Below are positions 35,849 to 47,965 of a DNA stretch of 64,000 bases, piece by piece. Made by a program: the position numbers and the translations under genes. The notes beneath the pieces are model-generated. The model was not told the DNA's origin. It saw only the letters and a list, made by a program, of their open reading frames with translations, and did no database searches. Location: the NCBI RefSeq assembly GCF_023015985.1, contig NZ_JALKAO010000003.1, forward strand, positions 558,001 to 622,000. Direction: 5' to 3'. The stretch's first letter is position 1. Each line of letters starts with the position of its first letter. This DNA comes from Marivita sp. S6314 (GTDB lineage: Bacteria > Pseudomonadota > Alphaproteobacteria > Rhodobacterales > Rhodobacteraceae).

Positions 35849-36091
35849 ATGGGAACGAAACGGACGGACGAATCTCGGGCGGATGCGGTGCGTATCGCGC
35901 TGACCAGTGGGCTGACACGCAAGCAGGTTGCTTCAGATTTGGGTGTCAGATTGTCGACGCTGGACCATTGGGTGACGGGACATCGTGACACTGAGCTAGT
36001 GCCTGACAAGGACCTCGACCTTGCCCAAGAGAACGAACGGCTTCGACGTGAGAACCGTATTCTCAAGGAGGAAAGGGAGATCCTAAATTGA
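35849..36091 (+). CDS. IS3 transposase OrfA, truncated
   Basis: An 80-residue OrfA: HTH region ADAVRIALTSGLTRKQVASD with STLDHWVTGH, then a leucine-zipper-like ENERLRRENRILKEEREI that pairs with OrfB. It ends early at EREILN; the expected tail (FFAGQKQ, 36146-36169) is found in the same frame about 55 bp further on after a stop, so an insertion or mutation has cut the normal orfA and its link to orfB. Not expected to function. Confidence 0.75.
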   Translation: MGTKRTDESRADAVRIALTSGLTRKQVASDLGVRLSTLDHWVTGHRDTELVPDKDLDLAQENERLRRENRILKEEREILN

Positions 36092-36165
36092 AGCCGGAAA
36101 AGAAAAGGCCCCGGTGGGGCGTTTTCCCGGCGAAACACCACGCAGTTCTTCGCGGGCCAAAAGCA

Positions 36166-37025
<860 letters not shown>

Positions 37026-37071
37026 ACGAGCACTTGGGGCGGCACAAAAACGGGACAGGTCCATTCCGGAC

Positions 37072-37944
37072 TTAAGCGTTGATGTCCTTGTGCGTTGGCA
37101 GAGCGGATTGGCTACCAGCTTTTGTGCACGCAAGTGCAGATGCGGCAATTGCCCGTGGCAACGCGTCATGGAGCGTCAGCTTTCGGTCAAGCCCAGCGGC
37201 GAGGACGCCTATGAAGCAATCACCCGCTGCGGTCGTGTCAACGACATCGACACGATGGCCTTTGTAGGTCACCAGATTACCCTCGCTGAAGGCTTCCGCG
37301 CCCGACGCGCCCAAAGTGCGCACAACCTGATTGCCTAATGCTGTTCCGATTGAGGCCGCGTCTGCGCTGGTCCCGAGCATCGCGGCGAGCATCATCGCTT
37401 CGCTTTCGTTCACGACCAACACCGTAACCTTCTCAAGGATCACGCGCGGCAGCCGGGCTGCCGGTGCGAGGTTCAGGATGGTCTTCACGCCAAGCCGAGA
37501 CGCCGTTTCGATGGCCGCGACAGTTTCCGCAACCGGAACTTCCAGTTGCAGCACAATGCAGCTGGCCTGCTCCAAGGCCGGAAAGTCCAACTGTGTGGAA
37601 CTCACCGTACCATTTGCACCTGCATCGAGCACAATCCGGTTTTCGCCACTGTCTTCGACAAGGATCGCGGCGCAGCCGGTTTGGGATGCGCTTCGCTTTA
37701 CGCCGGTCACGTCGACGCCAGCAGTCTCAAGATTTGCAAGGGCGGTTGCGGCGAGTGCATCCTCTCCCACCGCGCCGATCATCATGACCTCTGCGCCGTC
37801 AAGGGCAGCGGCGACAGCCTGGTTCGCGCCCTTTCCCCCAGCACCAAGTGAAAAGTGCTTGGACGCCAGCGTCTCACCCGGGTCGGGGCAGCGCTCAAGC
37901 TCAAAGCACAGATCGGCATTGATGGAACCGAAGACGACGATCAT
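37072..37944 (-). CDS. rbsK: ribokinase (PfkB family)
   Basis: Phosphorylates ribose (or a related sugar) to ribose 5-phosphate. The 290-residue protein has the ribokinase N-terminus IVVFGSINADLCFELERCP, the GAGGKGANQAVAAA substrate motif, PfkB signature VVDTTAAGDCFIGVLAAG with catalytic Asp in AAGD, and the ending QSALPTHKDINA. It starts four bases inside the nucleoside hydrolase stop, so the pair is coupled: hydrolase frees ribose, ribokinase captures it. The IS3 remnant ends 8 bp after its stop; the gene is intact. Confidence 0.93.
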   Translation of the reverse strand: MIVVFGSINADLCFELERCPDPGETLASKHFSLGAGGKGANQAVAAALDGAEVMMIGAVGEDALAATALANLETAGVDVTGVKRSASQTGCAAILVEDSGENRIVLDAGANGTVSSTQLDFPALEQASCIVLQLEVPVAETVAAIETASRLGVKTILNLAPAARLPRVILEKVTVLVVNESEAMMLAAMLGTSADAASIGTALGNQVVRTLGASGAEAFSEGNLVTYKGHRVDVVDTTAAGDCFIGVLAAGLDRKLTLHDALPRAIAASALACTKAGSQSALPTHKDINA

Positions 37945-38897
37945 GACGTCTGCAATGCCGACTCTGAGGCAAGAGTGGTCAGACTGTCCTTCAACAACGC
38001 TTCCAGCCGGGGGACATCAACCTCGGTCATAACTTCGCAATTTGGCTCGCGGTTGTTGAGGTGGCGCGCCTGCGTTCTTGCAACGGATTGCCCTGCCGCA
38101 TCACCTTCGCTCAGCGTGATTTCCACATGTGCCGGCACTGATTTGAACAGCCCTGGATCGACCAACCAGGCAATCACGCAGGGATCATGCAGACATGGGT
38201 CACGGCTTTCATAAGCTCCGAGCATTTGGCCGGCTGCTTGAAAGAGCGGTTCTTCGGCGGCGGCGAGATCCTTGCTGAACGATTTGCTGAGGATCGCCTG
38301 TCGGGTTACGTCCAGACCGAACAGCATGATCGGAATGACTGCTGTCATCACGATCTGCGCGGCATGTGGATCGACGTGGAAATTGAACTCCGCAAGGGGT
38401 GTGATGTTTCCGGGCCCAAAACATGCACCGCCCATTAGAACGATCTGGCGGATGTGGTCCCTTAGGTCGGGATAGCGCAGCAACGCCAATGCCACATTGG
38501 TCATCGGGCCAATAGGGCAGAGAACAATACCACCGGGAGTTTCGCGGGCGATGCGGTTGATGGCATCTATGGCATGGTCATCCTGCAACGGCGTCACAGG
38601 ATCCCGCAGGTTCACACCGCCCAACCCATCGGTGCCATGTGCAGACGATGTCCGTCCCTTTTGTTTCATGATCGGATGGGCGCAGCCATTGTAGACCGGC
38701 ACTTCTGAACAGCCCGCCAGATCAAGCACGCGGCGCGCGTTGGCGCTGGTGCTGGACAAAGGCACGTTTCCCGCAACACAAGTGATCGCGCGCAGGTCAA
38801 TGGCGTCTTTGTTGCCTAGCGCCATCAGGATGGCGATCGCGTCGTCAACGCCCGGGTCGCAATCAATGATAATGGGCAGCGGTTTGGCGTCAGTCAT
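37941..38897 (-). CDS. nucleoside hydrolase (inosine/uridine-preferring type)
   Basis: Cleaves the N-glycosidic bond of ribonucleosides to base and ribose. The 318-residue protein shows the Ca2+-binding IIIDCDPGVDDAIAI motif, TNVALAL with GPMTN, IRQIVLMGGA, NFHVDPHAAQIV and, near the C-terminus, HDPCVIAWLVDP carrying the catalytic-region His/Asp. Start 38897 overlaps the ABC ATPase stop (ATGACTGA); ATG 38906 is an alternative. It follows an ABC importer and precedes ribokinase, so nucleosides or nucleoside-like compounds are probable import substrates. Confidence 0.93.
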   Translation of the reverse strand: MTDAKPLPIIIDCDPGVDDAIAILMALGNKDAIDLRAITCVAGNVPLSSTSANARRVLDLAGCSEVPVYNGCAHPIMKQKGRTSSAHGTDGLGGVNLRDPVTPLQDDHAIDAINRIARETPGGIVLCPIGPMTNVALALLRYPDLRDHIRQIVLMGGACFGPGNITPLAEFNFHVDPHAAQIVMTAVIPIMLFGLDVTRQAILSKSFSKDLAAAEEPLFQAAGQMLGAYESRDPCLHDPCVIAWLVDPGLFKSVPAHVEITLSEGDAAGQSVARTQARHLNNREPNCEVMTEVDVPRLEALLKDSLTTLASESALQTS

Positions 38898-39957
38898 TTG
38901 GGACATACCGTGCATCCCGCGTGTTCCAGCCGAACTTGACCTCTTCCCCGACGGTGAACGCGTTGCCGCGTGCAGGGGCTGTGGCGGTCACGTCAATACC
39001 GCCTGCTGAGAGCATCACACGCTGTTCTGCGCCGTTGAACACGGTCTCCACAATCATACCGCAATAGGCGCCTTGTCCAAGTTTGATGTCTTCGGGTCGC
39101 ACAACGATGCAGCCCTTTGATCCTTCAGCTGGGTGGGCATCGTCGGGCAACGTGAGCGCCCCAAGCGCGGTTTCAACCGCGCCGTTGTGAACCTGCCCGT
39201 CAAAAATTGTAGAGCGGCCAATAAAATCCGCCGTAAACCGGTTTTGGGGCCGGTCATACATCTCTTGCGGTGTTCCGATCTGGGCGATGCGTCCGGCCTC
39301 CATCAGGCAGATTCTGTCCGACAGGGCCAAGGCCTCTTCCTGATCGTGGGTCACGAAGATCATGAAGGTGCCGCTTTCGCGGTGGATGCGCTTGATTTCA
39401 ACCTGCATCGTTTCCCGCAGTTTGGCGTCAAGCGCGCCGAAAGGTTCATCCATCAGGATAATCGCGGGCTTGTAGACAAGGCACCGCGCCAATGCGACGC
39501 GCTGCTGCTGACCACCGGACAATTGCTGCGGAAAGCGCGCATCGGCATGGGACAGGCCGACCATCTCCAAAACTTCGGACACCCGCTTTGCAATGTCCTG
39601 CGCCGGGATTTTGCGCATCAGAAGGGGAAAGCCCACATTTTCGGCCACGGTCATATGCGGGAACAGTGCATAGTTCTGAAACACCACGCCGATATCGCGC
39701 GAATTGATCGGCGTTGTCGTGCAGTCCTCGCCATCAATAATGACCGATCCGACACTGACATCGACCAGACCCGCAATCAGCTGCAGGAGCGTGGTTTTGC
39801 CGGACCCGGACGGGCCAAGCAGGGTCATCAGCTCGCCTTCCCGAACCTCAAGAGTGACGTGATCAAGGGCCACGACATCGCCATAGAACTTGGCAAGGTT
39901 CTGGACGACCAACTTGTGCGCACCAGCCGATCTATTGCTCATGTTTGGTTCCATCAT
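38890..39957 (-). CDS. ABC transporter ATP-binding protein (PotA/FbpC type)
   Basis: Cytoplasmic ATPase of 355 residues. Walker A LLGPSGSGKTTL, Q-loop VFQNYALFPHMTV, signature LSGGQQQRVALARCLV, Walker B ILMDEPFGALD, and switch FVTHDQEEAL are all intact; a TOBE domain occupies ~280-355. Family resemblance is to spermidine/putrescine and related importers. It lies between the fused permease (37-bp gap) and nucleoside hydrolase (overlap). Substrate is not settled: the PotA-like class suggests polyamine-type cations, whereas the downstream enzymes suggest nucleosides. Confidence 0.92.
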   Translation of the reverse strand: MMEPNMSNRSAGAHKLVVQNLAKFYGDVVALDHVTLEVREGELMTLLGPSGSGKTTLLQLIAGLVDVSVGSVIIDGEDCTTTPINSRDIGVVFQNYALFPHMTVAENVGFPLLMRKIPAQDIAKRVSEVLEMVGLSHADARFPQQLSGGQQQRVALARCLVYKPAIILMDEPFGALDAKLRETMQVEIKRIHRESGTFMIFVTHDQEEALALSDRICLMEAGRIAQIGTPQEMYDRPQNRFTADFIGRSTIFDGQVHNGAVETALGALTLPDDAHPAEGSKGCIVVRPEDIKLGQGAYCGMIVETVFNGAEQRVMLSAGGIDVTATAPARGNAFTVGEEVKFGWNTRDARYVPND

Positions 39958-39994
39958 GATTGTACTTTCTAACGAATTTCAGGTGCGGTTCGGA

Positions 39995-41725
39995 TCATTT
40001 CGGCCGCGCACGTTCTGCAATAACAAAGAGAAGTGTCACGAGGAGAATGATGACCACAGAGGCGGCCGCCAGTGTCGGGCTGACGCTCAGCAGGATGTCA
40101 TCCCACATTTTTGTCGGCAGGGTGCGTTTGACCCCAGCGCCGACAAACAGCGCGATGGTCAGTTCGTCAAAGGAATGCAGCAACCCGAACAGGAAGGCAG
40201 AGATGGCACCCCCGCGGATCAAGGGCAACATGACAAAGCGGATCTGCTGCATCTTTGACGCGCCAAGCGTCGCGGCCGCATCGCCCAGCCGCCAGTCATA
40301 TCCCTTGAACGTGGTCAGCATGATCACAAAGACAATCGGAAGCGCCGTCAGGGCATGACCCAGGGCAATCCCCATATTGGTGGCCACCAGTCCGACTTCG
40401 GCGAAGATGTAGAACAAGGCCACGGCGATCACGATATTTGGGATGATCATCGGCAGCAGAAACAGCATGAACGTTACGCTTCCCAGCCGTGTTTTGGTGC
40501 GCGCAATGCCATAGGCGGCAAGTCCGGCCAGTAACGTCGCCAGAATGCCGGTGGCGAAGGCAATGGCGAAAGACCGCAAGGTGGACCCCGTCCATTGCGG
40601 GGTTGTCAGGTAGCGTTCAAACCATTGGGTCGAAAAGGACTTGGGCGGAAACTCAAGAAAGCTTGATCCCGAAAAGGCCATTGGCGGGAAGGCAATGACC
40701 GGGATGATGAGAAGCGTCACCACGGTCATCGCGGTAATCGACAGGGCGCGCGGGCCAAGGTTGCCCAGCCCGAAGCGACCCAGCAATTCGGTCACCGCGG
40801 CACCCGCACCCAGCACCATGTTCCCGATCCCACGGCTGCGTGCGGCGCTGCGTTTTTGCGTCGCTTCGCCGGACACCGCAGACAGGCCGAAAATCCGGTC
40901 GTATACAAACACAACCGCGAGCGTCACAACCAACAGCAAGGTCGCCAGCGCACCGGCAAGGCGCATGTTGAAGAATTGCTGTACCTGCCTGATCATCAAC
41001 TGTCCGATCATCGTTTCGCGGGGTGAGCCAAGCAAGGCAGGCGTGATAAAGAACCCGATTGCAATGATGAACACCAAAAGGCCCGCTGCGGTCACACCCG
41101 GCATCGACAGCGGCAGGAAGACGCGCCAGAAGGCCTGGCTTTTGGTGGCACCCAGAGTCTGGGAGGCACTCATCAGGCGGCGATCAATGCCCAGCATGGT
41201 CGGCAACATCGTCAGGATCGCAATCGGCAACAGCGCATGCGCCATACCAAAGATCACCGCACCGCGCCCAAACAGCAGGTTGATCTCGCCCTCGTAACCC
41301 ATGCCCGTCAAAATCTGTGCCACGATCCCCTTGCGCGCCAGCAAGACGATCCATGCAAAATTCTTGAGGAGCGGGCTGATCCAGATCGGTAATAGCACCA
41401 GCCAGATCGCAAGCCTACGCCGTTTTTCCGGCATCACCGTCAGCCAGGCGGCAACCACATACCCCACCAGCAAACACACGATTGTCACCTGAATCGCGAT
41501 GACAAATGTATTGGCCAGAGTCTGAACATAAATGCCCGCCGAGAACATTTTGCGATAGATCGTGAGTTCGAACACCCCGGTTGACGGATCGCGGAAAGAC
41601 AGCAGGATCAGTGCAAGTGCTGGCACAATCAAAAGGGCGGCGACAAATGCCATACCGGGCCCGGCCAGCCAGATCGCATCCGGTTTCGCGCGCTTTTGTG
41701 TGTTCGGTTGGGGGGCGTTTTTCAT
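39995..41725 (-). CDS. fused two-domain ABC permease (PotB-PotC type)
   Basis: A 576-residue inner-membrane protein containing two binding-protein-dependent permease domains in one chain. The first (~1-285) has the coupling loop ASQTLGATKSQAFWRVFLPL; the second (~320-576) has AAATLGASKMQQIRFVMLPL. Usually these are two separate genes. About twelve spans are expected. It works with the ATPase encoded 37 bp downstream and the substrate-binding protein encoded 66 bp upstream, which is frameshifted. Confidence 0.9.
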   Translation of the reverse strand: MKNAPQPNTQKRAKPDAIWLAGPGMAFVAALLIVPALALILLSFRDPSTGVFELTIYRKMFSAGIYVQTLANTFVIAIQVTIVCLLVGYVVAAWLTVMPEKRRRLAIWLVLLPIWISPLLKNFAWIVLLARKGIVAQILTGMGYEGEINLLFGRGAVIFGMAHALLPIAILTMLPTMLGIDRRLMSASQTLGATKSQAFWRVFLPLSMPGVTAAGLLVFIIAIGFFITPALLGSPRETMIGQLMIRQVQQFFNMRLAGALATLLLVVTLAVVFVYDRIFGLSAVSGEATQKRSAARSRGIGNMVLGAGAAVTELLGRFGLGNLGPRALSITAMTVVTLLIIPVIAFPPMAFSGSSFLEFPPKSFSTQWFERYLTTPQWTGSTLRSFAIAFATGILATLLAGLAAYGIARTKTRLGSVTFMLFLLPMIIPNIVIAVALFYIFAEVGLVATNMGIALGHALTALPIVFVIMLTTFKGYDWRLGDAAATLGASKMQQIRFVMLPLIRGGAISAFLFGLLHSFDELTIALFVGAGVKRTLPTKMWDDILLSVSPTLAAASVVIILLVTLLFVIAERARPK

Positions 41726-41791
41726 ATATTCCAGACGTCAAATCCCGGGCGCTTTGCTCTGCGCCCGAGATTTTCCGTTTCCACTAAGTGA

Positions 41792-42858
41792 TTAGGAAAG
41801 AATCCACCGCTCGAAACGCTCGGTCAGGGCATCCTGATTGTCCGCCCAATACTGGGCATCCAGAAGCTTCAGGCGTTCAAAGTTGCCCGGTGCTGTCGGG
41901 AAGCGTTGTGCGGTATCCGGATCAATGAAGTCATAGGCTTTGGTGTTGGTCGGACCCATGGCAAGCTTGGTTGTGTATTTCGCCTGTCGCTCGGCATCCA
42001 TGCTGTACTTGATGAACTCGCGTGCGGCCTCAAGCTTGGGCGTACCCTTGGGAATGGTCCAGCCATTCATGTTGTAGACGCCTTCCCAGACAAGACCGAC
42101 ATCCGCACCGCTGGACATTGCGGTGTATGCGCGTGTTGACCACGCCGCCATCAGATCCAGTTCACCGTTCTGCAATAGCTGCGTCGCTTGCGCGCCGCCG
42201 GTCCACCAGATGTCGATGTCACCGCGAATGCGGTCCAGCGCAGCAAAGGCGCGATCCACATCCAACGGATACAGGTCGTCCATCGGGACACCATCCGTGA
42301 TCAACGCGGTCTCAAGTGTGATCACCGGGCTGCGCCACAGGCCGCGACGGCCCTTGAACGCTTCGGTATCCCAGAAATCTGCCCAGCTTTTGGGGGCGTT
42401 GTCGCCCAGCGAGGAATTCTGGTAGCCCATGATCATCGCGTAGATCCCAACACCCGCGAAATAATCGCTAAAGGCGTTGTCAACAAAGTCATCCGCGTTG
42501 TCTATCGTCAGGTTCAGCGGCTCAAAATACTCGCCCTCAAGGTTTTGCACACGCAGCATGTGTTCGGGGGTCATCAGGCCGACGTCAAACAGGTTTGTTT
42601 CGGTATCAACGGCCATTTTGTACTGGGTAGAGGATCGGGCTGCATGGTTGTGGCCGAAATCGAAATACCAAAATCCTTTTCGAAATCGTCATAGAGGCCG
42701 TATTTGAAGCCCTCATTGAAAGAGCCCCCCATGTCGCCGACAATCAATGTCTCGCTGGCGCGTGCTCGGCCCCCCGTGAAGACAAATGGCGCGGATAGCG
42801 CAACCGCCGTGGCCGTTGTCGTGCTCAAAAAGCTGCGTCGTGAGAGTTTGTTTGTCAT
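41792..42858 (-). pseudogene. ABC substrate-binding protein, frameshifted
   Basis: A spermidine/putrescine-type receptor (extracellular solute-binding family) split by one frame shift. The 5' part, from ATG 42858, has a Tat-like signal SRRSFLSTTTATAVALSAPF and mature start SETLIVGDMGGSFNEGFKYG. The frame changes near 42629-42636 (after TTMQPDP); the other frame then continues STQYKMAVDTETNLFDVG to the normal C-terminus at 41792 (ALTERFERWILS). One missing base restores a ~355-residue protein. A true lesion would disable the importer; a sequencing error is the alternative. Confidence 0.85.
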
Positions 42859-43022
42859 GTCTTTCTTCGTGTTGGAATTCGTCCAAATCGCACCACCAAA
42901 GTGCGAGAGTTGGCTGCAACGCCCCGACCGCCCAATCACGTCCAAGACTGGTTCACCGGCACATTGACGCAAGGGTACAGAGCGGTTGGCCGTGGCGACA
43001 TTACAGTTCTACAAAGCTGGGA

Positions 43023-43037
43023 TTAGGCAGAGCCTAA
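43023..43037. promoter_or_regulatory. TTAGG-N5-CCTAA operator, copy 1 (importer promoter)
   Basis: TTAGGCAGAGCCTAA, a perfect palindrome of LysR type (contains T-N11-A), 165 bp upstream of the substrate-binding-protein start. Two further copies lie at 44490 and 44524. Likely bound by the LysR regulator encoded at 45837. Confidence 0.72.
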
Positions 43038-43112
43038 GCTGTATTTTGCTTCGGACTGGTCCGAGGGCAACAATGGGCAGGAGTGGAAAATTGCCTTCAA
43101 AAAAACAGGTAT

Positions 43113-44408
43113 TTATGCCTTCTTCATCCGCGCAGCTGGCGGTTCTGAGACGCGGGCTTCTGATGGCCGATAGGACTGGTAGGTGTGTTGAATCGCGATT
43201 TGATCCGCAATGAATTTGGCATCATGCCACACGCCCCAGATGAACGACGACCCACGCCGCGATTGCCAGGGCAATCCAAGGAAATAGACGCCCGGTTCTT
43301 TGGACACACCGCGTGAATGAACCGGTTTTCCATGCTCATCAAAGGTGTCCACGTCCAACCAGCCGTAATCGACAGAGAACCCGGTCGCCCAGATGATGGT
43401 TGTGATGCCAGCGTCCGCCAGATCAAGCGTCTTGATCGGGGTTTTCATACAGTCCGGCTCGGGCCACCGCGCGCGTTCTTCGGGATCAAGGGGCAAGTCC
43501 AATCCATGGCGCTTGATATAGGCATCCGCCTCATCCAGCAGCGCCCGATGATTGGCATCCCCATTTTCAACATTCCGGACCAGATCATCTGCGAAATGCA
43601 ACTTACCGCCGTCATACCGCTCGGTACGCCCGACAAGCTGCATACCGCCTGCGGCAAACCGTCGGAAATCAACAGTCCGACCGCCCTTGGCACCGCTGAC
43701 CGCAATGGTCACATGCTCGGTTCCCGGACCGGGGGTTTGCATGTCCCATTTACCAAGCACGCCAAGCCACCAGCAAAAATCACGACCACGATAACTGCGT
43801 GGCGGGCGGTCATGCGGACCGACGGACAAATAGACCTGCCGTCCTGCATCCATCAATTCCTCGGCGATCTGCGCACCGGACGATCCTGCACCCACCACCA
43901 TCACCGCCCCGTTCGGCAATTGATCCGGATTGCGGTAGTCGTTGGAATGAAGCTGGGTCATGCCTTCGGTATCAGGCACGAGATCCGGCATCACCGGAAC
44001 CTGAAATGCGCCCGTCGCGGCAATGATGTGGCGTGTTTCAAAATCGCCGGCGGTGGTTTCGACATAGAATCCGCCACCGTTTTTGATGCGAGTCGCTTTC
44101 GTCACTTCTACGCCACACCGCAGGGGGGCTTTGATCTGCTTAACGTAATCGACAAAGTAATCAGCGACGGCGTCTTTCGCGATAAAGGCATCATGATCCG
44201 GATCATCGAACTCCCGGTTTGGAAACCGGTCATGCCAGGCAGGACCATTGGCCACGAGCGAATCCCACCGCGCCGAACGCCACTTCTCGGCGATACGGTC
44301 GCGTTCAAGCACCACATGCGAAATGCCGTGCGTGCATAGATGCTCGCTTGCCGCGATACCGGCTTGACCTCCACCTACGACAAGCGTGTCTACTTTTTCG
44401 ATGGCCAT
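43113..44408 (-). CDS. flavin-containing monooxygenase-like oxidoreductase
   Basis: A 431-residue FAD/NAD(P)H enzyme of the group B monooxygenase (CzcO/FMO) type. The FAD Rossmann motif is VVGGGQAGIAASEHL (~10-24), the NADPH motif VVGAGSSGAQIAEEL (~175). Between them is LHSNDYRNP, close to the FMO fingerprint region, and ATGFSVDYGWLD near the C-terminal. It probably oxygenates a nitrogen, sulfur or carbonyl centre of a small substrate. Start 44408 has AAGGGA upstream. Two TTAGG-N5-CCTAA palindromes lie 82-130 bp before it, linking it to the Rid gene and importer. Confidence 0.9.
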   Translation of the reverse strand: MAIEKVDTLVVGGGQAGIAASEHLCTHGISHVVLERDRIAEKWRSARWDSLVANGPAWHDRFPNREFDDPDHDAFIAKDAVADYFVDYVKQIKAPLRCGVEVTKATRIKNGGGFYVETTAGDFETRHIIAATGAFQVPVMPDLVPDTEGMTQLHSNDYRNPDQLPNGAVMVVGAGSSGAQIAEELMDAGRQVYLSVGPHDRPPRSYRGRDFCWWLGVLGKWDMQTPGPGTEHVTIAVSGAKGGRTVDFRRFAAGGMQLVGRTERYDGGKLHFADDLVRNVENGDANHRALLDEADAYIKRHGLDLPLDPEERARWPEPDCMKTPIKTLDLADAGITTIIWATGFSVDYGWLDVDTFDEHGKPVHSRGVSKEPGVYFLGLPWQSRRGSSFIWGVWHDAKFIADQIAIQHTYQSYRPSEARVSEPPAARMKKA

Positions 44409-44489
44409 GCACATTCCCTTCGGATCTCAGTTGGGCCAACCGTAGGGGGCGCAGGCGGAAGGCGAAAACAGTAATTCATTCAGCAATGC

Positions 44490-44504
44490 TTAGGCTGAAC
44501 CTAA
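44490..44504. promoter_or_regulatory. TTAGG-N5-CCTAA operator, copy 2
   Basis: TTAGGCTGAACCTAA lies in the divergent region between the monooxygenase (start 44408, minus) and the Rid protein (start 44657, plus). Its centre is 34 bp from that of copy 3, near three helical turns, suited to cooperative binding. Confidence 0.72.
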
Positions 44505-44523
44505 AGCGCGCCTCCGCGACGCC

Positions 44524-44538
44524 TTAGGGTATTCCTAA
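44524..44538. promoter_or_regulatory. TTAGG-N5-CCTAA operator, copy 3
   Basis: TTAGGGTATTCCTAA, third copy, 119 bp before the Rid protein start and 34 bp downstream of copy 2. The flanks are also shared in part (CTTAGG...CCTAATC). Confidence 0.72.
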
Positions 44539-44656
44539 TCAACAATGAGGGACTCCGTGCTTTTTGATCGCGCAGATTGCAATATCCCTGTCACAAATGA
44601 ACGGACCCCGCGTGCCCGCGTGTGCGTGGCTTGTCGTCTGGTCTTAAGGAGCACAC

Positions 44657-45073
44657 ATGGCCCATACCCGTATTCGCAAGTTTAATACCTCTGACACCTA
44701 TCCAGAGCAGAACCTCGACAATGATCTGTGCCAAGCGGTTGTCACGCATGGTGGAAAAACCGTTTGGTTGCGGGGCCAGTGTCCGCAGAACCTGGACGAT
44801 GCAGTCAACCTCGACAGTCACGATCCGGTCGCGCAGACCCATAAGGTGATGCAGAACATCAAGCAGTTGATCGAAGAAGCCGGCGGCGAGATGAAGCATC
44901 TGGTTAAGGTCGTGGTATACATCACCGACGTCCGCCACCGTGAGGCCGTGTACCGCACGATGGGCGAATACATCAAAGGCGTGCATCCGGTGTCGACCGG
45001 ATTGGTGGTGCAAGCCCTCGCGCGTCCCGAATGGCTGGTTGAGATTGACGGCACGGCGGTGATCCCGGAATGA
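44657..45073 (+). CDS. Rid-family protein lacking the catalytic Arg
   Basis: A 138-residue YjgF/Rid-fold protein. Seen: RIRKFNTSDTYPEQ at the start, GKTVWLRGQCPQNLD, DPVAQTHKVMQNIKQLIEEAG and HLVKVVVYITDV, then EWLVEIDGTAVIPE. In imine-deaminating RidA an Arg precedes this end (ARSxVEV); here the equivalent reads HPVSTGLVVQ, so Arg is replaced and simple 2-aminoacrylate deaminase activity is unlikely (Rid4-7-like). It overlaps the DUF1028 gene by four bases. Two operators lie upstream. Confidence 0.9.
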   Translation: MAHTRIRKFNTSDTYPEQNLDNDLCQAVVTHGGKTVWLRGQCPQNLDDAVNLDSHDPVAQTHKVMQNIKQLIEEAGGEMKHLVKVVVYITDVRHREAVYRTMGEYIKGVHPVSTGLVVQALARPEWLVEIDGTAVIPE

Positions 45074-45744
45074 CCTTTTCGCTTGTTGCCCGATGCCCGG
45101 ACACCGGCATGTTCGGTGTTGCCATTTCGTCTTCCTCTCCGGCGGTCGCCGCGCGCTGTTCATACACGTGCGCGGGTGTGGGTGCGGTTGCGTCACAGAA
45201 CGTGACCGACCCGACACTGGGGCCTTTTGCGCTGGATCTGATGCAGGGCGGAATGACTGCTGCTGAGGCCATTGCAGGCGTCCGGGATCAAGGCCGGTTC
45301 ATCGAGTACCGGCAAGTTCTGGCGGTAGACGGGCAGGGCCGCACGGCTATCCATTCCGGGCCCAATTCGCTGGGGATCTGGACGCAGGTACAGGCCGAAA
45401 ACGTAGCCTCCGGTGGAAACCTGCTGGCCAATGATCGCGTGCCACAGGCTATCGTCGACGGATACCTTGGCGCGTCCGGGCATATCGGGGATCGACTGAT
45501 CGCCGCGCTGCGCGCAGGACTGGCCGCAGGGGGCGAAGCCGGTCCCGTGCATTCGGCCGGGATGCAGATCGCTGACACGGTCAGCTGGCCGGTGGCGGAC
45601 CTGCGCTGCGACTGGAGCGAAGACTGCCCCATTGAGGCCGTGGCGACGGCGTGGGAGGTCTACAAACCGCAACTCGATGCGTATATCCAGCGCGCTCTCG
45701 ACCCGCGAGACGCACCATCCTACGGCGTGCCGGGGGACGATTGA
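45070..45744 (+). CDS. DUF1028 family Ntn-hydrolase-like protein
   Basis: A 224-residue DUF1028 protein. The N-terminus MTFSLVARCPDTGMFGVAIS and the following SSSPAVAARCSYTCAGVGAV are family hallmarks; G-rich GVGAVASQNVTDPTLG and RAALAAGGEAGPVHSAG-like sequence follow. DUF1028 belongs to the N-terminal-nucleophile hydrolase fold and is usually found beside Rid proteins and amide-degrading enzymes, as here. Amidohydrolase action on a small nitrogenous compound is inferred, not shown. Translation is coupled to the Rid gene. Confidence 0.88.
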   Translation: MTFSLVARCPDTGMFGVAISSSSPAVAARCSYTCAGVGAVASQNVTDPTLGPFALDLMQGGMTAAEAIAGVRDQGRFIEYRQVLAVDGQGRTAIHSGPNSLGIWTQVQAENVASGGNLLANDRVPQAIVDGYLGASGHIGDRLIAALRAGLAAGGEAGPVHSAGMQIADTVSWPVADLRCDWSEDCPIEAVATAWEVYKPQLDAYIQRALDPRDAPSYGVPGDD

Positions 45745-45836
45745 ACAGGGCGATCTGTCGTTCCAATCATTTGACCCGTATGCTGCGATCAAGCCGACCG
45801 TGAGCCATCCCACCCGCGAAACCAAGGACTGCCCTA

Positions 45837-46763
45837 ATGTTGCGTTTCACATTACGCCAATTGGAATATTTCGTCGCAGTCGGCGAATTGGGCAGCATTG
45901 CGCAAGCAGCAGAGAAGGTCAGCGTATCGTCGCCATCGATTTCAGCGGCGATCAATCAACTTGAACAGGAATTCGGCCTGCCTTTGTTTGTCCGACAACA
46001 CGCACAAGGTCTTTCGCTGACGATTGCAGGGCGCGAGATGCTCAAACAGGCGAAACTTGTCCTGCAGAATGCGGAACAGCTTGTCGATCTTGCAGGCGAT
46101 ATTTCAGGAAAGGTACAGGGGCCCTTGTCAATTGGCGGATTGTTGACCTTTGCACAGGTCGTTGTTCCGGCGCTCAGGGCCGGTTTTGAACGCCTTTACC
46201 CCGAGGTCCGAGTGACACAGCATGAACTTGATCAGGCGCAGATTTTCAGCAAACTGCGTCAGTGCGAGATTGATGTTGCCATCACCTATGACCTCGATCT
46301 GCCAGGCGATCTGACCTTCGTCCCCATCACGTCACTGCCGCCTTACGCGCTCCTGTGCGAAACGCATCCACTTGCCGGACGCAGCAGCGTCACAGTTGCG
46401 GACCTTCTGCCGCATCCGATGGTGTTGCTGGACCTGCCGTTCAGTTCCGAATACTTCCTGTCGTTCTTCCTAAAGTCGGGGAAAAAGCCGATCATCGCCG
46501 AGCGCACCCGCGACATGGCCGTCATGCGCAGTCTTGTGGCCAATGGGTTTGGCTTTTCCCTCGCGAATGTCCGACCGTTCAATGACCTGTCTCCGGACGG
46601 CAAAAAGCTGATTTTCGTTCCTTTGGACGGCGACGCACGGCCGATGCAGCTGGGTTTGCTGTCGTCTCGCGACGCGGGCAACGTCAACGTGATCCGCACC
46701 TTCATAGACCATTGCAAGACCGAGTATCAAAGCGGCTTTATTCCCGGGGTGAATGCGGACTGA
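45837..46763 (+). CDS. LysR-family regulator of the accessory catabolic locus
   Basis: A 308-residue LysR-type regulator. The HTH occupies ~1-60: TLRQLEYFVAVGELGSIAQA and SSPSISAAINQLEQEFGLPL. The effector-binding domain is ~90-295. It lies 92 bp after DUF1028 and 50 bp before the M20 deacylase on the same strand. The three TTAGG-N5-CCTAA palindromes nearby fit LysR binding-site architecture, making this the probable regulator of importer, monooxygenase and Rid/DUF1028 genes. The inducer is unknown. Confidence 0.9.
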   Translation: MLRFTLRQLEYFVAVGELGSIAQAAEKVSVSSPSISAAINQLEQEFGLPLFVRQHAQGLSLTIAGREMLKQAKLVLQNAEQLVDLAGDISGKVQGPLSIGGLLTFAQVVVPALRAGFERLYPEVRVTQHELDQAQIFSKLRQCEIDVAITYDLDLPGDLTFVPITSLPPYALLCETHPLAGRSSVTVADLLPHPMVLLDLPFSSEYFLSFFLKSGKKPIIAERTRDMAVMRSLVANGFGFSLANVRPFNDLSPDGKKLIFVPLDGDARPMQLGLLSSRDAGNVNVIRTFIDHCKTEYQSGFIPGVNAD

Positions 46764-46813
46764 CCGCCGCCCTGCCTATTCGCCGCCGTCCTTAACCGAA
46801 ACGGAATTCCCAC

Positions 46814-47965
46814 ATGTCTCTGACGCTTGAAACCTTGGAAACCCTTGTCGGTTTCGACACGGTCAGCGCCAAACCCAACGTCGACATCATCCGCTTCATC
46901 GAGGATTTTCTGCGCACGCGTGGTGCGCGATGTGTGCCACTGCCGTCAAAACAGGCGGGCAAGCTGGGCCTCTATGCCGAAATCGGGCCACGCGGGCCGC
47001 ATGGCATCCTTCTTTCGGCGCATACCGACGTCGTGCCTGTGACCGGCCAGACCTGGACCCGCGCTCCGTTTTCGCTCAGCCGCGAGGGCGATCGGGTGTT
47101 CGGGCGCGGCACCACTGATATGAAAGGCTATGTCGCCTGCATGTTGCACGCGGCCGATAGGGCGGCGCGGGCGGACCTTAACGAACCGCTCAAACTGCTT
47201 TTTTCCTATGACGAGGAAATCGGCTGTGTTGGCATTCAGGAAATGATCGGCAAAGTGCCTAGCTTGGTCGGCACGCCGCGCGCCTGTTTCGTCGGTGAAC
47301 CAACCGAAATGCAGGTCGCGATTGGCCACAAAGGCAAGGCTGCGCTTGAGGCGGTGTGCACGGGACAGGCCGGGCATTCATCGCTGGCCCCACATTTTGT
47401 GAACGCCCTGCACATGGCTGCGGACATGGTGATTGGCTTACGTGACCTCCAGGACTGGTTCGCTCAGAACGGTGAGCGTGATGATGGCTATGATGTGCCT
47501 TACAGCACGATCCATGTTGGTAAACTGTCGGGCGGTGTGGCGTTAAACATCGTCCCGGACCAAGCAAAGCTCACATTCGAATATCGCCACCTTGCAGCCG
47601 ATGCACCCACGATGATCATGGCGCGTATCAAGGAATTGGCGGACCGGCTTACCGCACAGTACCAGCGCATGTTCGATGGCGCTGACATCTGTATCAAACA
47701 GATCAATGCCTATCCGGGACTTGATACGCCCGAGACGTCACATGCCGCACAACTCGCCTTACGGACGCTGCGAACGAGCAAACCGACCAAAGTTGCTTTC
47801 GGCACCGAAGCCGGCTTTTTTGATGCCCTCGGCATCCCTACTGTCGTGTGCGGCCCCGGCAATATGGCTGGTCAGGGGCACAAAGCCGACGAATTCATCG
47901 AACTCGGCCAGCTCGCCGCATGTGATGCATTGTTGGCAGGCATTATCGAAGAGTTGGGCGCCTAA
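46814..47965 (+). CDS. argE: M20 deacylase, acetylornithine deacetylase (ArgE)-like
   Basis: A 383-residue zinc peptidase-family deacylase. Metal-binding motifs: SAHTDVVPV (His), GRGTTDMKGY (bridging Asp), SYDEEIGCVG (catalytic and ligand Glu), CFVGEPTEMQ (Glu/Asp) and the C-terminal GHKADEFIE (His). A dimerisation domain lies between ~180 and 290. It hydrolyses N-acyl amino acids; N2-acetylornithine is the classic substrate, but the catabolic context makes another N-acyl amino acid or N-acetyl-glutamate plausible. It has no arg genes beside it. Confidence 0.88.
   Translation: MSLTLETLETLVGFDTVSAKPNVDIIRFIEDFLRTRGARCVPLPSKQAGKLGLYAEIGPRGPHGILLSAHTDVVPVTGQTWTRAPFSLSREGDRVFGRGTTDMKGYVACMLHAADRAARADLNEPLKLLFSYDEEIGCVGIQEMIGKVPSLVGTPRACFVGEPTEMQVAIGHKGKAALEAVCTGQAGHSSLAPHFVNALHMAADMVIGLRDLQDWFAQNGERDDGYDVPYSTIHVGKLSGGVALNIVPDQAKLTFEYRHLAADAPTMIMARIKELADRLTAQYQRMFDGADICIKQINAYPGLDTPETSHAAQLALRTLRTSKPTKVAFGTEAGFFDALGIPTVVCGPGNMAGQGHKADEFIELGQLAACDALLAGIIEELGA

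Follow-up and report, generated by a model that had tools for sequence, protein, structure and literature searches.

A LysR-type regulon in Marivita sp. S6314 that would join uptake and sugar removal to an imidazoleacetate pathway

Genes and predicted operators at the locus

The DNA studied here is a 64,000-nucleotide stretch of the genome of Marivita sp. S6314 (the window, to whose positions all coordinates refer). It carries a group of ten genes, for an ABC importer, a nucleoside hydrolase (NH), a ribokinase-like protein, a flavin monooxygenase (FMO), a Rid protein, a DUF1028 protein, a LysR-type regulator and an M20 hydrolase, together with three copies of the palindrome TTAGG-N5-CCTAA. An earlier reading made from the letters alone (the sequence-only reading) had assigned these genes to a single regulon with the LysR gene starting at 45837; the ten genes lie where it had put them, and the three palindromes, at 43023, 44490 and 44524, are exact. 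The features are as follows.

37072..37944, minus strand: ribokinase-like PfkB kinase (NCBIfam D_ribokin_bact, 266.7 bits, under the cut-off of 299.65)
37941..38915, minus strand: NH of the IU family (PF01156, 9e-91; active-site motifs DCDPGVDD and HD)
38890..39957, minus strand: ATPase of an ABC importer, PotA/PhnT-like (family matches)
39995..41725, minus strand: permease of the importer, 576 residues, with two fused domains (two BPD_transp_1 stretches)
41792..42858, minus strand: solute-binding protein (SBP) gene with a broken frame (tblastn with an intact relative from Primorskyibacter flagellatus, locus L186, matches two frames)
43023..43037, no strand: predicted LysR-type operator TTAGG-N5-CCTAA ahead of the importer operon
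43113..44414, minus strand: FMO, putative HinF-like imidazoleacetate monooxygenase (MSMEG_0569-type family, under the cut-off)
44490..44504, no strand: predicted operator 1 of the divergent FMO/Rid intergenic region
44524..44538, no strand: predicted operator 2 of the same region
44657..45073, plus strand: Rid protein, HinL-like (Thr replaces the catalytic Arg of RidA)
45070..45744, plus strand: DUF1028 protein, Ntn-type hydrolase, putative HinH-like amidase (PF06267, 1.3e-59; distant solved relative 2imh)
45837..46763, plus strand: LysR regulator, HinK-like (HTH_1 and LysR_substrate domains, orthologue search)
46814..47965, plus strand: M20 hydrolase (ArgE), annotated as acetylornithine deacetylase, HinG-like (family matches; neighbour of the core)

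By position, the minus strand thus encodes the ribokinase, NH, ATPase, permease, SBP and FMO, and the plus strand Rid, DUF1028, LysR and the M20 hydrolase. The SBP gene, previously taken to be a single open frame, is broken near 42615: one frame runs from 42858 to 42616 and another from there to 41792. Because the two halves still match the intact relative (about 65% and 76% identity), the break is either recent or a sequencing error. The label 'nucleoside-type importer' of the sequence-only reading is borne out by the adjoining NH, which has the DxDxxxDD and HD catalytic motifs of IU nucleoside hydrolases, but not by the ATPase and the fused permease, which resemble PotABC and PhnT. Directly past the 3' end of the ribokinase gene, open reading frames at 36088-37338 resemble, by eye, pieces of an IS3-type transposase.

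Recurrence of the palindrome

When one mismatch was allowed, the window still contained the same three sites alone, and none of 100 dinucleotide shuffles of the window contained three exact copies (mean 0.17). In the whole genome (3.77 Mb) the three were the sole exact copies, with seven other sites at one mismatch. The three-fold palindrome is therefore real and not a product of chance. It satisfies the T-N11-A geometry of LysR sites, and subtraction of coordinates places the site at 43023 about 170 bp upstream of the SBP start (42858).

Three sets of loci were used to follow the palindrome and the genes. The LysR protein was searched for in 248 genomes of the family Rhodobacteraceae, 75 of which matched at E <= 1e-40; the matches of at least 44% identity formed a distinct group. 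Sixty of the 65 other places at this identity were fetched (1.1 Mb in total; one of the five unfetched places falls inside the later-fetched stretch L151) and make up, with the window, 61 LysR loci. The second set was based on FMO orthologues, found in 15 of 385 genomes of a class sample and in 35 of 398 of a phylum sample (own genome included); 40 of the 47 distinct places were fetched. A permease-anchored scan of the genome collection with two peptide patterns, which was not exhaustive, yielded the third set of 38 loci. Counts of gene content rest on identity cut-offs of our choice, and a gene lost at a contig end was counted as lacking; the stretches L146 and L151-L153 were scanned for gene content but belong to none of the three tables.

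Among 13,312 combinations of five-base half-site and spacing, TTAGG-N5-CCTAA had the highest z-score in the 60 LysR loci, with 21 exact copies against 0.45 expected, and this recurrence beside orthologues agrees with the control by one regulator proposed earlier. By raw locus count, with no correction for composition, it ranked 75th of the 13,312, behind mostly GC-rich palindromes; it was first when the comparison was confined to the 320 half-sites with the same G+C content and spacing 5. Four control palindromes had 0-2 exact matches each in the same loci. In the other two locus sets there were 7 and 11 exact copies, compared to 0-1 for the controls. At no more than one mismatch, 69 sites were found in 42 of the 61 LysR loci, and for 64 of them a cluster gene began nearby: FMO for 23 sites, histamine dehydrogenase for 13, the importer ATPase for 12, a Rieske oxygenase for 7 and other genes for 9. 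In these loci the palindrome typically lies 90-120 bp upstream of an operon start. As this set had been picked by the LysR protein, the association with neighbouring genes is not independent of that choice. For the shorter form TTAG-N7-CTAA, 29 of 32 sites were near a recognised gene start and the remaining three were not. Predicted operators also precede the SBP gene in four loci of the permease set (L165, L166, L168 and L171).

These results make it very likely that one LysR regulon spans uptake, sugar release, FMO, Rid, DUF1028 and the deacylase. A HinK-like LysR protein that senses imidazole-4-acetate (ImAA) or a close relative would bind the TTAG-N7-CTAA sites and activate FMO, the Rid-DUF1028-LysR-ArgE genes and the SBP-permease-ATPase-NH-ribokinase genes. 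The closest PDB relatives of the LysR protein are 3fzv (188 bits) and 6m5f (187 bits), followed by one with 95 bits; 6m5f is presumably HinK. Two counts speak against so simple a picture: 19 of the 61 LysR loci lack a site with one mismatch or less, and two of the control palindromes reached 26 and 27 one-mismatch matches, compared to 66 for TTAGG-N5-CCTAA in the 60 loci, so that single one-mismatch sites are weak evidence.

The core genes and the imidazoleacetate pathway

FMO was present in 47 of the 61 LysR loci (the window included), and these 47 core loci contained Rid in every case, DUF1028 in 46 and ArgE in 27; in relatives FMO is the first gene of FMO-Rid-DUF1028-ArgE operons. The sequence-only reading had named orthologues that occur apart, with no palindrome beside them, as the pattern that would speak against a common regulon. 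Since all loci with FMO also had Rid and 42 of 61 had a site, this was not the overall pattern; in part it was seen, as 14 loci lacked FMO at the cut-off used and 19 lacked the site. In the second set, 38 of the 40 loci passed the FMO cut-off, with Rid in 26, DUF1028 in 25 and ArgE in 21, which shows that FMO also exists without the rest. On an Agrobacterium vitis plasmid stretch it stands without the other core genes, and 728 plasmid records contain FMO relatives, with an identity under 60% in 624. The four core genes lie close together on plasmids of Streptomyces, Bradyrhizobium, Acetobacter, Paracoccus, Thioclava, Pantoea and Klebsiella; on the Klebsiella (L098) and Pantoea (L102) plasmids they are accompanied by a Pot-type importer and by AroQ-like, GhrA-like, quinone oxidoreductase and GST genes.

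The neighbours of the core point to its function. A 689-residue neighbour matches histamine dehydrogenase (PDB 6de6) with 1275.9 bits over residues 1-686, and histamine dehydrogenase adjoins the core in 24 of the 47 core loci, in many relatives together with the palindrome. Aldehyde dehydrogenase was found in nine of the 47, and the Leisingera cluster also has dodecin and aspartate ammonia-lyase. Directly upstream of the latter cluster (L096:1411-6541) are genes for an LLM oxygenase, a flavin reductase, an alpha/beta hydrolase, an 'amino acid synthesis family' protein and a second aldehyde dehydrogenase, which look as if meant for another N-heterocycle.

For Pseudomonas putida U, Table 3 of a Brevibacterium paper that lists its Hin proteins (PMC6467879) gives HinF as FAD-monooxygenase (EC 1.14.13.5), HinL as enamine deaminase, HinH as amidase, HinG as amidase (EC 3.5.1.8), HinI as aspartate ammonia-lyase and HinD as aldehyde dehydrogenase. 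As summarized in a review (PMC8231116), HinFLHG convert ImAA to aspartate, and the hinF promoter is bound by the LysR-type protein HinK with ImAA. Judged by gene order and annotated function, FMO, Rid, DUF1028 and the M20 hydrolase would correspond to HinF, HinL, HinH and HinG, and it is highly probable that the core in the window is the imidazoleacetate pathway. The statement of the sequence-only reading that no described pathway is known to have this set is thus not supported in the light of HinFLHG (PMC8231116, PMC6467879), whereas its suggestion of 'a modified nucleoside or its base' comes close to the best reading.

The hin pathway of P. putida U and P. aeruginosa PAO1 resembles the window in the kinds of genes and in the F-L-H-G order; this order is present in relatives of the window, while in the window itself FMO is divergent and LysR stands between DUF1028 and ArgE. 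A LysR regulator and an operator ahead of hinF are common to Pseudomonas and the window-type loci. The window differs in having neither a close histamine dehydrogenase nor an aldehyde dehydrogenase of the cluster type, in the replacement of HinA by the ABC importer and in the addition of NH and ribokinase. In the whole Marivita genome the best match to histamine dehydrogenase had 30% identity and the best to the cluster aldehyde dehydrogenase 39-44%, neither of them close; a complete enzyme set from histamine to ImAA, with regard to these two enzymes and with the HinC-type aminotransferase left unsearched, was not encountered there. A possible aspartate ammonia-lyase, of 41% identity, is encoded elsewhere in the genome.

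In the proposed route ImAA would be oxygenated by FMO (HinF), after which Rid, DUF1028 and the M20 hydrolase (HinL, HinH and HinG) would open the imidazolone and strip off its one-carbon and nitrogen parts to give aspartate; we infer the order of these middle steps. The M20 hydrolase is probably an N-formylaspartate deformylase, presumably the enzyme name that belongs to EC 3.5.1.8.

Residues of two core proteins were compared in the clusters. At the place of the catalytic Arg105 of RidA, 47 of 53 clustered Rid reading frames have Thr, the other six being unmatched by the pattern; in the alignment the window Rid lacks the Arg. The catalytic Arg is given as a criterion for RidA imine deaminases in PMC4433059, and the Thr would argue against classic imine deaminase activity of the cluster Rid, yet HinL is annotated as enamine deaminase in the table cited above (PMC6467879). 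The DUF1028 reading frames begin with MTFSL in 44 of 54 cases, and with MTFSL or MTFSI in 46; removal of the Met would leave an N-terminal Thr, as in Ntn hydrolases. Of the own genome and 14 control genomes, three matched the DUF1028 family; no Pseudomonas was among these three, and nothing follows from this for HinH.

One or two Rieske oxygenases accompany the core in 22 of the 47 core loci (L036-L095, e.g. L038, L039 and L046). They are distant relatives of glycine betaine and carnitine monooxygenases, some stand behind the palindrome, and perhaps they N-demethylate methylimidazoleacetate.

Several other pathways were considered for the core. Homarine catabolism was the first idea, since marine Rhodobacteraceae with genes for a LysR protein, an oxygenase and a hydrolase brought the hom operon (homABCDER) to mind; it was dropped once the 689-residue neighbour was recognised as histamine dehydrogenase. 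The PDB match to this enzyme also ruled out betaine demethylation, suggested by the Rieske likeness and by a first labelling of the neighbour as TMADH-like. Pyrimidine (Rut-like), vitamin B6, thiamine and sulfur-salvage readings arose when Rid, an NCS1 permease, GMC and aldehyde dehydrogenase were the sole known neighbours, and none of them explained histamine dehydrogenase and aspartate ammonia-lyase. The Rut pathway likewise attacks an N-heterocycle with a flavin oxygenase, a Rid protein and amide hydrolases, but among the ten window proteins scanned no RutA or RutB family match was shown, and the window Rid scored 44 bits, far under the RutC cut-off of 169.1.

Front ends of the core

Instead of histamine dehydrogenase, the window carries NH and ribokinase together with the fused-permease importer, and an exact predicted operator precedes them. 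The fused permease is rare in the family, with matches in four of 246 genomes at E <= 1e-90 (own included). In the permease set, where relatives beside the core have 39-79% identity to the window permease, 34 of 38 loci contained at least one of FMO, Rid and DUF1028, and 33 contained FMO; L173, L184, L190 and L191 had no core gene, the last two being weak permease matches. GH3 glycosidase was present in 30 of the 38 loci and NH in 14. Of the 33 with FMO, 27 had GH3, 12 had GH3 together with NH, and none had histamine dehydrogenase. In turn, NH, GH3 and the fused permease were all missing from the 30 loci that combine histamine dehydrogenase with FMO (24 in the first set, 6 in the second). These front ends thus look like alternatives, NH with ribokinase being just one of several attached to the core.

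The full set of the window, including LysR, was found in L186 of P. flagellatus CGMCC 1.12644. Identities to the window proteins are 76% for SBP, 79% for the permease, 75% for the ATPase, 68% for NH, 54% for the ribokinase (encoded at the same place), 66% for FMO, 93% for Rid, 80% for DUF1028, 53% for ArgE and 60% for LysR. The histamine dehydrogenase clusters of the family and of other Alphaproteobacteria share the core, a related LysR and, in many cases, the palindrome; they differ in that some contain aldehyde dehydrogenase and many a two-permease Pot-type importer. GH3 genes of the beta-glucosidase-like type are exemplified by L155:5199-7541, L163:5093-7471, L177:6342-8717 and L174:6440-8806. 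Further combinations were seen: in Thioclava and Salipiger (L105, L182 and L183) the fused-permease importer stands with an LLM oxygenase and a class II aldolase, not with NH or GH3, and in L151 with three LLM-type oxygenases, a LysR and a GMC oxidoreductase, without FMO, Rid and DUF1028.

Fourteen cluster NH proteins were aligned (window, L186 and 12 others; L159 was left out). Their motif GLDVTR ends in a nearly invariant Arg, a place taken by His in the five solved relatives shown (GLDxTH). The loop before HD is also shorter in the cluster proteins. Both features would fit an unusual base but prove nothing. The cluster NH proteins share the DxDxxxDD and HD motifs and PF01156 with ribonucleoside hydrolases of the RihA/RihC type and differ from them by this Arg and the shorter loop; the window NH scores below the curated cut-offs for both RihA and RihC.

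The substrate of the Marivita locus

The substrate of the window system is somewhat more probably than otherwise a ribose conjugate of imidazoleacetate, and ImAA riboside is the foremost candidate. This reading is suggested because NH and ribokinase would release and use ribose, so that the aglycone must feed the imidazoleacetate core. The importer would take up an imidazole acid joined to ribose, of which ImAA riboside is the likeliest, NH would split it into ribose and ImAA, and the kinase would phosphorylate the ribose. Mammals make 1-ribosylimidazole-4-acetate as a histamine metabolite, according to PMC2219991, PMC8144954 and PMC11432521.

A number of observations weigh against the riboside. 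GH3 is commoner than NH with this importer (30 and 14 of 38 loci), therefore in many of the loci the sugar may not be ribose. Ribokinase was found in one of the 38 permease loci, and NH is absent from the other 46 of the 47 core loci of the family set. For the other three permease relatives in the family (L151-L153, 43-46% identity), the 20 kb retrieved around each contain neither FMO nor Rid nor DUF1028. The broken SBP frame makes the function of the importer in the Marivita strain doubtful, unless it is a sequencing error. Finally, the affinity of HinK for ImAA is low, 1.56 mM as quoted in the review (PMC8231116).

In a rival reading the same core and regulon serve another imported glycoside ending at imidazoleacetate (a glucoside, ribosylhistamine or another imidazole riboside), with NH and GH3 as alternative or successive sugar removers. 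In Thioclava L163 the palindrome stands ahead of GH3, and the co-occurrence of GH3 with NH in permease loci would fit such a division. However, the window and L186 have NH and ribokinase without GH3, and ribosylhistamine would still require an amine-oxidising step, for which the Marivita genome has no close histamine dehydrogenase. Taken together, we regard this rival as rather improbable, though to be reckoned with.

It is still less likely that the importer-NH-ribokinase operon serves general nucleoside scavenging and merely adjoins the imidazoleacetate genes. The catalytic motifs of NH are ordinary, its closest solved relatives are pyrimidine nucleoside hydrolases, and L151-L153 show that more distant permease relatives can occur with no core gene nearby. 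Against this, an exact predicted operator precedes the importer operon, and the permease relatives that adjoin core genes, 34 of 38, were found without using the core. A different regulator at the palindrome, in place of the LysR protein at 45837, is very improbable: binding by LysR is predicted only, in several loci the nearest LysR is from another subgroup, and sites are missing from the 19 loci mentioned, but the T-N11-A geometry fits LysR binding, the palindrome is enriched at operons around orthologues of the window LysR, and the LysR protein HinK is reported as the controller of hinFLHG in the review (PMC8231116).

Significance

The core pathway and its LysR control are already known from Pseudomonas. 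The part for uptake and sugar removal seems to be undescribed: a front end of importer, NH and ribokinase (or GH3) was not found in the literature searched, which is weak evidence of absence as subscription papers were mostly outside it. In the same literature, judged by titles and the beginnings of abstracts, bacterial degradation of imidazoleacetic acid riboside was not found, nor was DUF1028 found named.

The ImAA riboside reading supplies a specific substrate prediction for a transporter-hydrolase set whose genes currently carry the annotations polyamine-type transport, nucleoside hydrolase and acetylornithine deacetylase, and it suggests roles for a DUF1028 protein and for a Rid protein without the arginine. 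The single operator motif can be used to find imidazole catabolic genes in the Rhodobacteraceae and in the Rhizobiaceae. We tentatively propose, as a possibility short of an expectation, a modular pathway under a single LysR regulator and its operator (TTAG-N7-CTAA), with interchangeable front ends that lead into HinFLHG. Histamine would enter through histamine dehydrogenase, and sugar conjugates of imidazoleacetate through NH or GH3 plus an importer of their own; Rieske oxygenases would perhaps admit tele-methylimidazoleacetate. If this is true, bacteria would salvage every major animal end product of histamine. As ImAA riboside is a mammalian histamine product, its uptake and use by bacteria would connect the turnover of histamine in animals with bacteria of the environment and of hosts.

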